Positions 6,047 through 64,000 of a stretch of 64,000 nucleotides of DNA are shown one piece after another. This stretch comes from an uncultured Oscillospiraceae bacterium (GTDB taxonomy: Bacteria > Bacillota > Clostridia > Oscillospirales > Oscillospiraceae). Within the stretch, counting starts at the first letter, position 1. The number at the start of each line of letters is the position of its first letter. The notes under the pieces are model-generated. The model had not been told where the DNA came from. It was given only the letters and a program-made list of their open reading frames with translations, and did no database searches. Position numbers and translations under genes: made by a program. The stretch lies in contig CANPYK010000007.1 in assembly GCA_947588605.1 (NCBI GenBank), forward strand, positions 1-64,000. The letters are read 5' to 3'.

Positions 6047-6224
6047 TCGAGCATTTTTTCCGGCGGCATGTACGTCGGAAAAAATACCTTTTGTCACGCA
6101 AGTGTGCCGCTTGCGGCGCGCGCAGCGTGACGGCAGGAAGATTCGGCGTGAATTCCGCAGAATTCACGGCGGGTCTTCCGCACGTTCCCCTTGGCAGGAA
6201 AATGGCGCAGCCATTTTTCGCCAG
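6047..6224. repeat. Modular hairpin element, copy 1
   Basis: It begins with TCGAGCATTTTTTCCGGCGG, whose TTTTTTCCG pairs with CGGAAAAAA 12 nt on. Next comes a GTCACG...CGTGAC stem, then a long stem whose arms close on GAATTC-CGCA-GAATTC, the box CGCACGTTCCCCTTG, and a last hairpin around AATGGCGCAGCCATT ending in GCCAG. It lies in the efp to CD1247 intercistronic gap, five bases after the efp stop. Other copies are at 52,178, 60,576 and 63,111. Seen on the minus strand (the transcribed one here) it would form four stacked hairpins in the mRNA. Confidence 0.85.
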
Positions 6225-6229
6225 ACCTC

Positions 6230-6799
6230 TTAGCCTTTTGCCCTCTCAAGATACTCGCCGGAGCGGGTGTCGATGCGGATGCGGTCGCCCACGTTGATGA
6301 AGAGCGGGACCTTGATCTCGGCGCCGGTCTCCAACGTGGCGGGCTTTAAGGTGTTGGTGGCGGTGTTGCCGGCAAAACCGGGGTCGGTGTCGGTGATCTC
6401 CAGCTCCACAAAGTTGGGGGGCTCCACGGAGAAGACATCGCCCTTGTAGGAGCTGATGGTGCAGACCATGTTCTCCTTGACGAAGCGGAAGTTGTCCCCC
6501 AGCTTCGAGCCGGAGACGGGCTCCTGCTCATACGTCTCGGGGTCCATGAAATAGTAGAGGTCGCCGTCCTGATAGAGGTACTCGGCCTCCTTGCGCTCCA
6601 CGAACGCCTCCTCGAACTTGGCGGTGGGGTTGAAGCTTGTCTCGGTGACGGCGCCGGTGATGAGGTTCTTCATCTTGGTGCGCACAAAGGCCGCGCCCTT
6701 GCCGGGCTTGACGTGCTGGAATTCCACGACCATCACGGGCTTGCCCTCGTACTCGAAGGTCTTGCCGTTCCGAAAGTCGCTGGCGGTGATCGTTGCCAT
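6230..6799 (-). CDS. efp: Elongation factor P
   Basis: A 189-residue protein of full family length. EF-P binds the ribosome between P and E sites and helps form peptide bonds at proline runs. The N-terminal KOW-like domain carries [14 protein letters not shown], with the lysine of PGKG (residue 34) in the loop that reaches the peptidyl centre and is often modified. Two OB domains follow; the C-terminal one contains [17 protein letters not shown], the family signature. A promoter with TTGCAA and TAAAAT lies 60-90 bp upstream. It is followed by the modular hairpin element and then the CD1247-like gene. Confidence 0.97.
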
Positions 6800-52126: not shown

Positions 52127-52156
52127 AAAAATCGCGCCCTTCCGGGCGCGATTTCC
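52127..52156. terminator. GC-rich hairpin, first of two identical copies
   Basis: AAATCGCGCCC and GGGCGCGATTT around TTCC. It is repeated without change over 30 bp at 52,269-52,298, on the other side of hairpin element copy 2. Confidence 0.75.
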
Positions 52157-52177
52157 CAGTTTGTCAAAAAACTCTCA

Positions 52178-52267
52178 TCGAGCATTTTTTCCGGCGGCAT
52201 GTACGTCGGAAAAAATACCGCACGTTCCCCTTTGTCGGAAAAGGCCGCAGGCCTTTTCCGACAGGCT
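52178..52267. repeat. Modular hairpin element, copy 2 (short form)
   Basis: Keeps the first hairpin (from TCGAGCATTTTTTCCGGCGG) and the box CGCACGTTCCCCTTTG plus the last hairpin GTCGGAAAAGGCC-GCA-GGCCTTTTCCGAC, but lacks both middle hairpins of copies 1 and 3. It lies between two identical terminator hairpins downstream of the PcsB-like gene. Confidence 0.85.
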
Positions 52268-52268
52268 G

Positions 52269-52298
52269 AAAAATCGCGCCCTTCCGGGCGCGATTTCC
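52269..52298. terminator. Terminator of the ftsEX-hydrolase operon
   Basis: AAATCGCGCCC/GGGCGCGATTT with a TTCC loop and further T on the minus strand, 31 bp after the hydrolase stop. Identical to 52,127-52,156. Confidence 0.8.
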
Positions 52299-60575: not shown

Positions 60576-60757
60576 TCGAGCATTTTTTCCGGCGGCATGT
60601 ACGTCGGAAAAAATTCCTTTTGTCACGCAAGTGTGCCGCTTGCGGCGCGCGCAGCGTGACGGCAGGGAAATTTCGTGTGAATTCCGCAGAATTCACACGA
60701 AGTTTCCCGCACGTTCCCCTTTGTCGGAAAAGGCCAACGGCCTTTTTCGACAGGCTG
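60576..60757. repeat. Modular hairpin element, copy 3 (full form)
   Basis: Same order as copy 1 and nearly the same first half up to CAGCGTGACGGCAGG. The second long stem has changed on both arms: GGGAAATTTCGTGTGAATTC, loop CGCA, then the complement with a single mismatch. The last hairpin is GTCGGAAAAGGCC/GGCCTTTTTCGAC. Confidence 0.85.
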
Positions 60758-63039: not shown

Positions 63040-63091
63040 TACTTTACTATACTAAAATGTTCCACGTGGAACATTTTAGTATAGTAAAGTA
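63040..63091. repeat. 52 bp perfect palindrome with parS-like core
   Basis: Each half is 26 bp, the centre at 63,065/63,066 has no loop. The central 16 bp are TGTTCCACGTGGAACA, which fits the ParB site consensus TGTTNCACGTGAAACA except for one base that makes it fully symmetric. Outside the core the arms are AT-rich (TACTTTACTATACTAAAA). It may also work as transcription terminator for the SLH gene. Confidence 0.75.
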
Positions 63092-63110
63092 AACACCCTC
63101 ATCAAAGGCC

Positions 63111-63231
63111 TTTTTCCGGCGGCGCGGCGTGGCGAAAGGGAAGCCCCTTGCGAAAGGTCCGCAGACCTTTCGCAAGGGGCTTTCCGCACGTTTCCCCTTG
63201 GCATCGAAATGCCAAAGGCATTTCGAGCCAG
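63111..63231. repeat. Modular hairpin element, copy 4 (divergent)
   Basis: Starts with TTTTTCCGGCGG, but the first hairpin has been cut. The long stem is GGAAGCCCCTTGCGAAAGG.. with loop CGCA and its complement, followed by CGCACGTTTCCCCTTGG and a hairpin with TCGAAATGCC/GGCATTTCGA. Its last base touches the stop codon of the SLH gene. Confidence 0.75.
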
Positions 63232-64000
63232 TTACTTCCCGTACTTCAAAAATCTTGACACGATCGTGGCAAGCTCGGCGCGGGTGAGGGCGCTCTTGGG
63301 GGAGAGGGTGGTGGCGGAGGTGCCGTTGATGATGCCGCGGCTGACGGCCCAGGTCATGGCGTCCACATTGTCCTCATCCAGCTCCTTGGCGTCGGTGAAG
63401 CCCTGGAGAGCCACGGAGGCGGTGACGTCCACGTCCTGGCCGGCCATCTTGGCGTAGAGGTAGAGGGCCTTGACGGCCTCCTCGCGGGTGATGGCGCCGT
63501 TGGGATCGAACCTGCCGTCCTTGGCGGCCATGATCTCATTTTCCTCCGCCCAGGCCACGGCCTTGGCGAACCAGTCGGTCTTGGCAACGTCCGTGGAGGC
63601 GCTGTCGGCCTTGGGGGCGGGGGTGTCGGCGAGGCGGTGGAGGACCGTGGCGACCATGGCGCGCAGGGCCGTCTCCCGGGGGGCGAAGACGCTGTCGGCG
63701 GTGCCGTTCATGATGCCCTTCTCACGCATCTCATAGGCGGGCTCAAAGTACCAGGCGGTGGGGATCACGTCCCGGTAGTTGGCGCCCTGGCTGCCGGGGA
63801 GGCGCGCGCCGGCGTCGGCGGGGGCCTTGGCGGTGAGCTCCAGGCAGCCGTTCATGGAGATGGTGCCGTCGGCGTTGCGGGTGATGCCGGAGGCGATGGC
63901 CTTGGCGGTATCCAGGGACTTGAACCAAGTCTCGTCCACCGCTTCGCCGGAGGCGTTGCCCTGATAGTAGTCGTTGGCCTTCAGGTAGTCGGTCTTGTTC
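63232..64000 (-). CDS. S-layer homology domain protein, C-terminal part
   Basis: The gene runs off the right edge; 256 codons to the stop are visible. Three SLH repeats, near residues 75-125, 135-185 and 190-256 of this part, carry ITREEAVKAL and LTRAELATIVSRF. They bind pyruvylated secondary wall polymer, so the protein is attached to the cell surface. The region before them, with NADGTISMNGCLEL, belongs to an unknown N-terminal domain. The first SLH repeat is degenerate (APRETALRAM). Confidence 0.88.
   Translation of the reverse strand, partial: NKTDYLKANDYYQGNASGEAVDETWFKSLDTAKAIASGITRNADGTISMNGCLELTAKAPADAGARLPGSQGANYRDVIPTAWYFEPAYEMREKGIMNGTADSVFAPRETALRAMVATVLHRLADTPAPKADSASTDVAKTDWFAKAVAWAEENEIMAAKDGRFDPNGAITREEAVKALYLYAKMAGQDVDVTASVALQGFTDAKELDEDNVDAMTWAVSRGIINGTSATTLSPKSALTRAELATIVSRFLKYGK

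Follow-up and report, generated by a model that had tools for sequence, protein, structure and literature searches.

A modular family of hairpin repeats in Oscillospirales with features of small transposons that duplicate terminator hairpins

The insertion sequence IS1630 of Mycoplasma fermentans, a member of the IS30 family, duplicates an inverted repeat of variable length when it inserts, and in strain M64 duplications of 16, 23, 25 and 26 bp surround four of the seven complete copies, according to the excerpted account of that element (PMC3317919). BOX elements of Streptococcus pneumoniae, as extracts from their description have it, are composite, modular and non-coding, with optional modules and a predicted RNA fold that pairs the terminal repeats (PMC3049150). 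REPs are 20–40 bp long and have at one end a GTAG or CGTC tag that is left unpaired; these tagged, high-copy palindromes lie mostly downstream of coding regions, many of them being plausibly transcribed (PMC3733652, in excerpt). Template switching, finally, can leave a stem paired after a single switch, which writes a change that matches both hairpin arms; such mutations have been described for RNA genes (PMC8794818).

Here we analyse a family of intergenic repeats from a window (i.e., the whole 64,000-nt stretch covering positions 1 to 64,000 of contig CANPYK010000007.1, assembly GCA_947588605.1) of an uncultured Oscillospiraceae bacterium. As in IS1630, the duplicated target is an inverted repeat of variable length; unlike IS1630, which encodes a transposase and has its own 27-bp inverted repeats, the element is non-coding. 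It resembles BOX in being composite, with optional modules, but has another sequence and another host, and the extracts on BOX describe neither a hairpin-sized target duplication nor hypervariable paired arms. Its high copy number, palindromes and placement recall REPs, but it is far longer, has terminal inverted repeats and carries CGTC inside the stem of its first hairpin (HP1), whose sequence lacks the unpaired GTAG or CGTC foot tag by which REPs and REPINs are recognised. Its most variable hairpin recalls template switching, here within a mobile repeat and different in nearly every copy of the bacterium's own genome, rather than in an RNA gene. The literature examined, in the portions consulted, did not combine the three traits found here: a short repeat spread over five families of one order, duplication of a terminator hairpin and a hypervariable paired hairpin. 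The reading that we favour, and consider reasonably probable, is of a family of MITE-like, non-autonomous transposons with hairpin duplication, a strand-favoured HP1-HP2 fold, arm copying in the third hairpin (HP3) and exchange of hairpins.

The layout of the 51 copies in the genome, with their flanks, gives the module order HP1 - CCTTTTGT - HP2 - GCAG - HP3 (loop CGCA) - CGCACGTTCCCC - HP4. Four copies lie in the window, each on the plus strand. Copy 1 (6047..6224) belongs to a class with GCCA ends and no recognisable target duplication, and comprises HP1 (6054-6084), HP2 (6093-6131), HP3 (6137-6178), the box (6179-6192) and HP4 (6193-6222); the stop codon of an efp-like gene on the opposite strand (6230..6799, minus strand; the name is that of the preliminary description) lies 5 nt past its end. 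Copy 2 (52157..52268) is a short, full-ended element without HP2 and HP3, made up of the left terminal repeat CAGTTTGTCAAAAAACTC, HP1 (52185-52215), the box (52219-52232), HP4 and a right terminal repeat with the end GACAGGCTG, and it stands between two 30-nt copies of a terminator hairpin (52127..52156 on the left and 52269..52298 on the right). Copy 3 (60576..60757) has HP1 (60583-60613), HP2 (60622-60660), HP3 (60665-60707), the box (60708-60721), and HP4 with the right end running to 60757. Copy 4 (63110..63231) has a degenerate HP1, no HP2, HP3 at 63141-63182, the box at 63185-63199 and HP4 at 63200-63229, and is followed by an opposite-strand stop codon at 63232.

The preliminary description, made from the window alone, had proposed a modular element with fixed boxes, hairpin arms that change while pairing is kept, and middle hairpins present or absent as whole modules. 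All of this is borne out: the first shared box, TTTTTTCCGGCGG, recurs unchanged at 6054, 52185 and 60583 and with a single mismatch at 63110; the box before the last hairpin, CGCACGTTCCCCTT, is exact at 6179, 52219 and 60708 and has one extra T at 63185; HP3 closes on the loop CGCA in copies 1, 3 and 4, with arms that differ yet pair; and HP2 and HP3 are missing as units from copy 2, as is HP2 from copy 4. The terminal inverted repeats and the duplicated terminator hairpin described below were absent from that account. Folded as RNA, the plus strand of copy 1 reached -97.1 kcal/mol (z = -9.06) and the minus strand -76.1 kcal/mol (z = -4.30), with none of 200 shuffles as low in either case. A further module, an insert of ~60-70 nt with hairpins of its own, was seen inside the inner hairpin of HP2 at four loci (L014, L068, L073 and L052) and in some copies of the related genome G016.

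A search with HP1 (31 nt, up to three mismatches) found the 51 copies in the 2.34-Mb genome, 26 forward and 25 reverse, and none with the backwards control. It might be supposed that the copies are intrinsic terminators of separate origin whose likeness is accidental, and terminator hairpins do flank some of them, but 51 near-exact copies of a 31-nt hairpin against none backwards, together with a shared order of boxes, leave this supposition a negligible probability. The two outcomes that the preliminary description had named as fatal to it, namely a lack of further copies in the genome or its relatives and independent terminators without shared boxes, are thus both contradicted. HP1 was carried by 23 of the 60 genomes searched, own genome included (22 of the 59 others); the carriers were 21 of the 33 other genomes of the same genus plus one genome from another family, and of the 12 same-genus genomes without HP1, ten were sized 1.9 Mb or less. 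A covariance model (R1; E <= 1e-5, at most 15 candidates scored per genome), a check that had been suggested at the outset, extended the range to 31 of 295 genomes of the order, own genome included, in 18 of 148 genera and five families. At least 116 stretches with the element were found in a scan of named genomes, and among the matches listed are the isolate Pseudoflavonifractor gallinarum DSM 107456 and assemblies named Lawsonibacter, Dysosmobacter and Ruminiclostridium. In the 27 loci examined from other organisms, many have an extra hairpin ahead of HP1, and the internal motif of HP2 is similar. Over all genomes, 209 distinct copies were collected, 158 of them outside the own genome.

Rfam returned no match to the whole window at gathering score, a best match to copy 1 of E = 2.1 at a relaxed threshold, far under the gathering score of that family, and only SRP RNA, with no family for the element, in seven loci from other organisms. 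Viral contigs contained no exact match to patterns of the HP1 core, the left end or the HP0-HP1 junction, and no match to copy 2 was found in the plasmids searched; in phages, copy 1 had one weak partial match (31% of the query, 78.6% identity, E = 1e-3).

Full-ended copies carry terminal inverted repeats close to CAGnnTGTCrAAAAA, and where the 5' flank is CAGTTTGTCAAAAAACTC, the sequence that precedes the element recurs directly after it. This recurrence was scored in 195 of the 209 distinct copies, 14 being left out for want of flank, and 36 of the 195 outscored the top value (32) of 585 mismatched-pair controls. Of these 36, three reflect repetition within tandem or nested elements (two rows of L043 and one of L125). 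The other 33 are stem-loops specific to their locus, and align over 19-44 nt, or 49 nt in L052, where the alignment runs into the element; some of the alignments include a few bases of the element's end. By eye, the left ends of these 33 show nnTGTCrAAAAA in 24 and variants of it in most others, with none in L185 and L203. In the own genome, the left terminal repeat was recognised in eight of 51 copies and the duplication threshold was passed only by L007, L020 and L022, with L005 scoring 25; the remaining copies mostly have GCCA ends and varied 5' flanks, often other repeats. Most own-genome copies show no target duplication, and the evidence for transposition applies to the full-ended class.

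For that class, the terminal inverted repeats and the duplicated terminator hairpin provide good support for the conclusion that the copies are transposons. Full-ended copies have the hallmarks of MITEs, being short, non-coding, high in copy number and bounded by terminal inverted repeats, with target site duplications (the 33 stem-loop repeats among 195 copies) and an empty site. The latter was found at the copy-2 locus, where the close relative G021 has no element and a single, slightly different version of the 30-nt terminator that stands on both sides of the element here. The duplication of a variable-length inverted repeat as the target is also the behaviour characteristic of the IS1630 group of the IS30 family. 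The efp locus shows a GCCA-ended copy that is present or absent between close relatives: G021 lacks the element although its efp protein is identical, and the element of G016 shares HP2, HP3 and HP4 with copy 1.

In the mechanism that we propose, the element would be a small non-autonomous transposon of the host's order, ~110-260 bp long. Judging from the behaviour of the target, a putative transposase of the IS1630 (IS30) type would cut one strand on one side of the target palindrome and the other strand on the other side, and repair would then duplicate the target hairpin. Gene ends are where terminators lie, and since these are the targets, the elements would accumulate there. A route through RNA, in which a reverse transcriptase copies the folded plus-strand RNA and template switching among element RNAs shuffles the hairpins, would suit the RNA-like, strand-favoured fold and the shuffled hairpins described below; we regard it as very unlikely, since an IS1630-type DNA transposase is what leaves a duplicated target hairpin next to terminal inverted repeats.

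Elements are found where genes end, in many cases between two convergent ones. Among the 42 own-genome copies that could be parsed (nine of the 51 could not), 31 have a convergent frame (100 codons or longer) whose stop codon is no more than 80 nt from the 3' end of the element, compared with 448 of 2686 random positions, and in 22 this opposite-strand stop codon lies 1-6 nt away. A same-strand frame ends within 160 nt upstream of HP1 in 19 of the 42, and both types of frame are present in 14. A cruder count of orientation is unreliable because in this GC-rich sequence the opposite strand is also open in reading frames. The tight placement beside stop codons bears out what had first been noticed in the window, with one correction: two of the copies had been placed after stop codons on the same strand, but the genes whose stop codons adjoin copies 1 and 4 are on the minus strand.

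This placement bears on the view that the fold is a 3' UTR or regulatory RNA (e.g., a terminator or mRNA stabiliser) kept by selection on the host, with mobility being secondary. A strand-favoured fold with covariation, the 22 of 42 copies within 6 nt of a convergent stop and the 19 of 42 that follow a same-strand stop at 160 nt or less would all be in keeping with it. However, orthologous loci do not keep the element, as the close relative is empty at two loci, the hairpins differ in most orthologous pairs, and a third or so of the other genomes of the genus, most of them small, dispense with it altogether (the 12 counted above). In addition, the favoured fold and the abutting gene lie on opposite strands. 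That the element serves the 3' end of this gene's mRNA, a possibility raised in the preliminary description, is unsupported for that reason: such an mRNA would contain the complement of the fold, and each conserved G-U pair would there be an A-C mismatch. For a terminator in particular, the stem of HP1 is closed by T6 on the 5' side and A6 on the 3' side, so that no U tract follows the hairpin. We therefore consider a host-useful RNA unlikely, and prefer the reading of the family as non-autonomous transposons.

Within the transposon, HP1 and HP2 behave like a fold of RNA or single-stranded DNA, which is well supported as a fold. In an alignment of 28 diverse sequences, 95.9% of cells are paired and 16 of 29 pairs have changed on both sides. 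The covariation score of 0.341 exceeds that of shuffled alignments (0.124 +- 0.010, 0/500 as high) and of slid controls (<=0.084), with the caveat that related sequences inflate this shuffle test; of the five measures, that of further pair types does not exceed the shuffles (97/500 as high). Pairs 10-22, 51-75, 53-73 and 54-72 are mainly or always G-U on the plus strand, and 53-73 is invariant, being U-G in 28 of 28. These four conserved G-U pairs make the plus strand the steadier one: its fold beats that of the minus strand in 100% of 138 copies for HP1 and 94% for HP2, with mean gains of 5.8 and 8.8 kcal/mol, respectively, although the minus strand of HP1 folds too, but less well. Selection for a folded RNA or single-stranded DNA, as proposed at the outset for the element as a whole, thus fits HP1 and HP2, with their covariation and strand-specific G-U pairs, while HP3 fits a rewriting of arms instead. 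The fold of HP1-HP2 would function in RNA or in single-stranded DNA, and the machinery that mobilises the element would most likely recognise it. In one locus (L160), HP2 has become a perfect 26-bp palindrome from which the conserved wobbles (G-U) are gone, the outcome expected of blind arm copying.

HP3 is distinct in 42 of 45 own-genome copies. Across three close genomes (G000, G016 and G021; 29 of 167 copies could not be parsed into hairpins and were left out), we obtained 104 distinct HP3 hairpins, 61 of them perfect, with 1958 Watson-Crick, 28 G-T and 19 A-C pairs, 12 other mismatches and two gaps. The hairpins are thus 97% Watson-Crick paired, as counted by a parser that picks the most symmetric boundary and is biased toward pairing, and G-T does not clearly exceed A-C (28 vs 19; p = 0.24 for equality); in HP3 with a single defect, the counts are eight G-T and 15 A-C. 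In the same 138 copies, the two strands of HP3 are equally stable in 63%, and the plus strand of HP4 is favoured in 55%. The outer stem of HP2 is equally pure (450 Watson-Crick, two G-T, three A-C and one other in 76 distinct hairpins). HP4 has 20 G-T and four A-C in the 55 distinct hairpins used (56 parsed), an excess that on inspection is largely one G-T common to abundant subfamilies. Between near neighbours in the three genomes, HP3 shows 41 paired double changes, eight double changes at unpaired arm positions and 13 half steps (arms that differ at one base), and transversions account for 15 of the 41 paired changes and one half step; these comparisons use related, non-independent hairpins, and no p value was used for the contrast.

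Outside the three genomes, 44 of 158 copies were parsed in the same way and yielded 32 new distinct HP3 hairpins, 14 of them perfect, with 576 Watson-Crick, 12 G-T and eight A-C pairs, seven other mismatches and two gaps. This set likewise has no clear G-T preference (p = 0.50), but with few near neighbours it shows one paired double change, five unpaired ones and three half steps. It is thus the three close genomes, with their many related copies, that carry the excess of paired changes, and the outside set does not repeat it. A cruder parse of 101 of the 209 copies, some of them misparsed, gave 1849 Watson-Crick, 47 G-T, 22 A-C, 70 other and 44 gaps, and leans to G-T.

Two accounts of these changes must be weighed. 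HP3 arms might change without any copying, through ordinary point mutations that later mutations compensate because pairing is selected for. Pairing that is kept nearly everywhere agrees with this account, as do the lean to G-T in the cruder parse and the outside set, in which half steps (3) and unpaired changes (5) outnumber the paired one. In the three genomes, by contrast, half steps are far fewer than paired changes (13 vs 41), paired transversions are common, and by the finer parse G-T is not clearly preferred over A-C, either there (28 vs 19, and 8 vs 15 for single defects) or outside (12 vs 8). We judge stepwise compensation the less likely account, while still a serious one, and arm copying in DNA to be likely for HP3, though not proven. 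The suggestion that a mechanism rewrites the arms, made in the preliminary description, is accordingly favoured by the balanced defects of HP3 and the dominance of paired changes in the three genomes, a dominance that the small outside set does not repeat. In terms of the proposed mechanism, HP3 and the outer stem of HP2 would evolve in good part by fold-back template switching of arm onto arm, as the pair counts suggest. The pairing of HP3 may, on the other hand, stem from selection for hairpins on both strands. A bolder extension holds that each round of movement copies one HP3 arm via fold-back, leaving almost all copies with a near-perfect hairpin of their own, and that the HP1-HP2 RNA fold is under selection as what a new, hairpin-duplicating system of mobilisation recognises; we offer it as a speculation that is probably wrong. 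With many copies and orthologous loci in close relatives, the family offers natural material for telling template switching apart from compensatory selection. HP3 is a caution that paired changes by themselves do not have to signify a functional RNA, and the element may help to explain how repeated DNA holds a fold while its letters change.

Copies at the same locus were compared by pairing own-genome loci with those of G016 and G021 through their flanks, which gave 49 pairs, 41 parsed and eight unparsed; aligned flanks are 79-99% identical, and some locus pairs rest on one flank. All three variable hairpins (HP2, HP3 and HP4) differ in 25 of the 41 orthologous pairs, all agree in two, and 14 are mixed, while all three differ in 72% of random pairs (n=4144). 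Hairpins at orthologous and random loci agree at 6/41 vs 11% for HP2, 9/41 vs 7% for HP3 and 11/41 vs 14% for HP4. Of the differing hairpins in G016 and G021, 83 of 97 have a match of at least 0.9 elsewhere in the same genome, matches that would arise anyway from recurrent hairpin types. Both gene conversion and repeated insertion into one target fit the differences at the same locus, and by one or the other (conversion, or replacement at the same target) hairpins would be further swapped between copies. At the copy-2 locus, the element of G016 has a different 5' junction, which favours a separate insertion there.

The searches of whole genomes for a mobilising enzyme covered the IS30 and Y1 transposase families. 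Genes of the IS30 family occur in 11 of 34 genomes of the genus (10 over the cut-off), and 10 of the 14 copy-rich ones (at least 25 copies) are without any IS30-family match. An IS30-type transposase belonging to the element was not found at the 16 IS30 loci examined, which include matches at ~33% identity; their ends differ from those of the element. Pairs of element ends 600-3500 nt apart were absent from 498 sequences, some of them overlapping. Two end sites without HP1 nearby in the own genome yielded nothing, and eight such sites in G018 are decayed copies or chance sites, none being a transposase with the element's ends. We also considered as an autonomous partner the IS30 transposase beside HP1 in L044 and L079, and rejected it, as L080, L091 and L083 show it to be part of a separate insertion sequence with its own ends. 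This IS30-family insertion sequence abuts HP1 directly in L079, L080 and L091, and in L083 it abuts the sequence normally ahead of HP1; HP1 or its foot may be a target of that insertion sequence.

The Y1 family bears on whether the repeat might be a REP/REPIN-type element moved on single-stranded DNA by a Y1 (RAYT-like) transposase. Such an origin would account for a palindromic, high-copy repeat at gene ends, and G-T pairs on one strand would suit recognition of single-stranded DNA. However, no Y1_Tnp (PF01797) match was found in the own genome or in the copy-rich G005, G006 and G016, and over the genus PF01797 matches occur in 18 of 34 genomes and do not track the element. Y1 transposases are not known to duplicate their target. 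We hold this origin to be highly improbable and retain a transposase of the IS1630 type as the putative mobilising enzyme.

Other repeats often adjoin the elements. A short repeat, TACTAATATCTA.TTAAAAGGA, and its close variants interrupt or flank elements in L025, L015 and L068, and several GCCA-ended copies (e.g., L067, L074 and L063), as well as L059, share other intergenic repeats directly upstream. Different repeat families are thus found fused at shared positions. Within the window, a perfect 46-bp palindrome was also observed at 63043-63088. Its centre, TGTTCCACGTGGAACA (63058-63073), is the single match in the window to that motif at up to two mismatches, and resembles a parS partition site.
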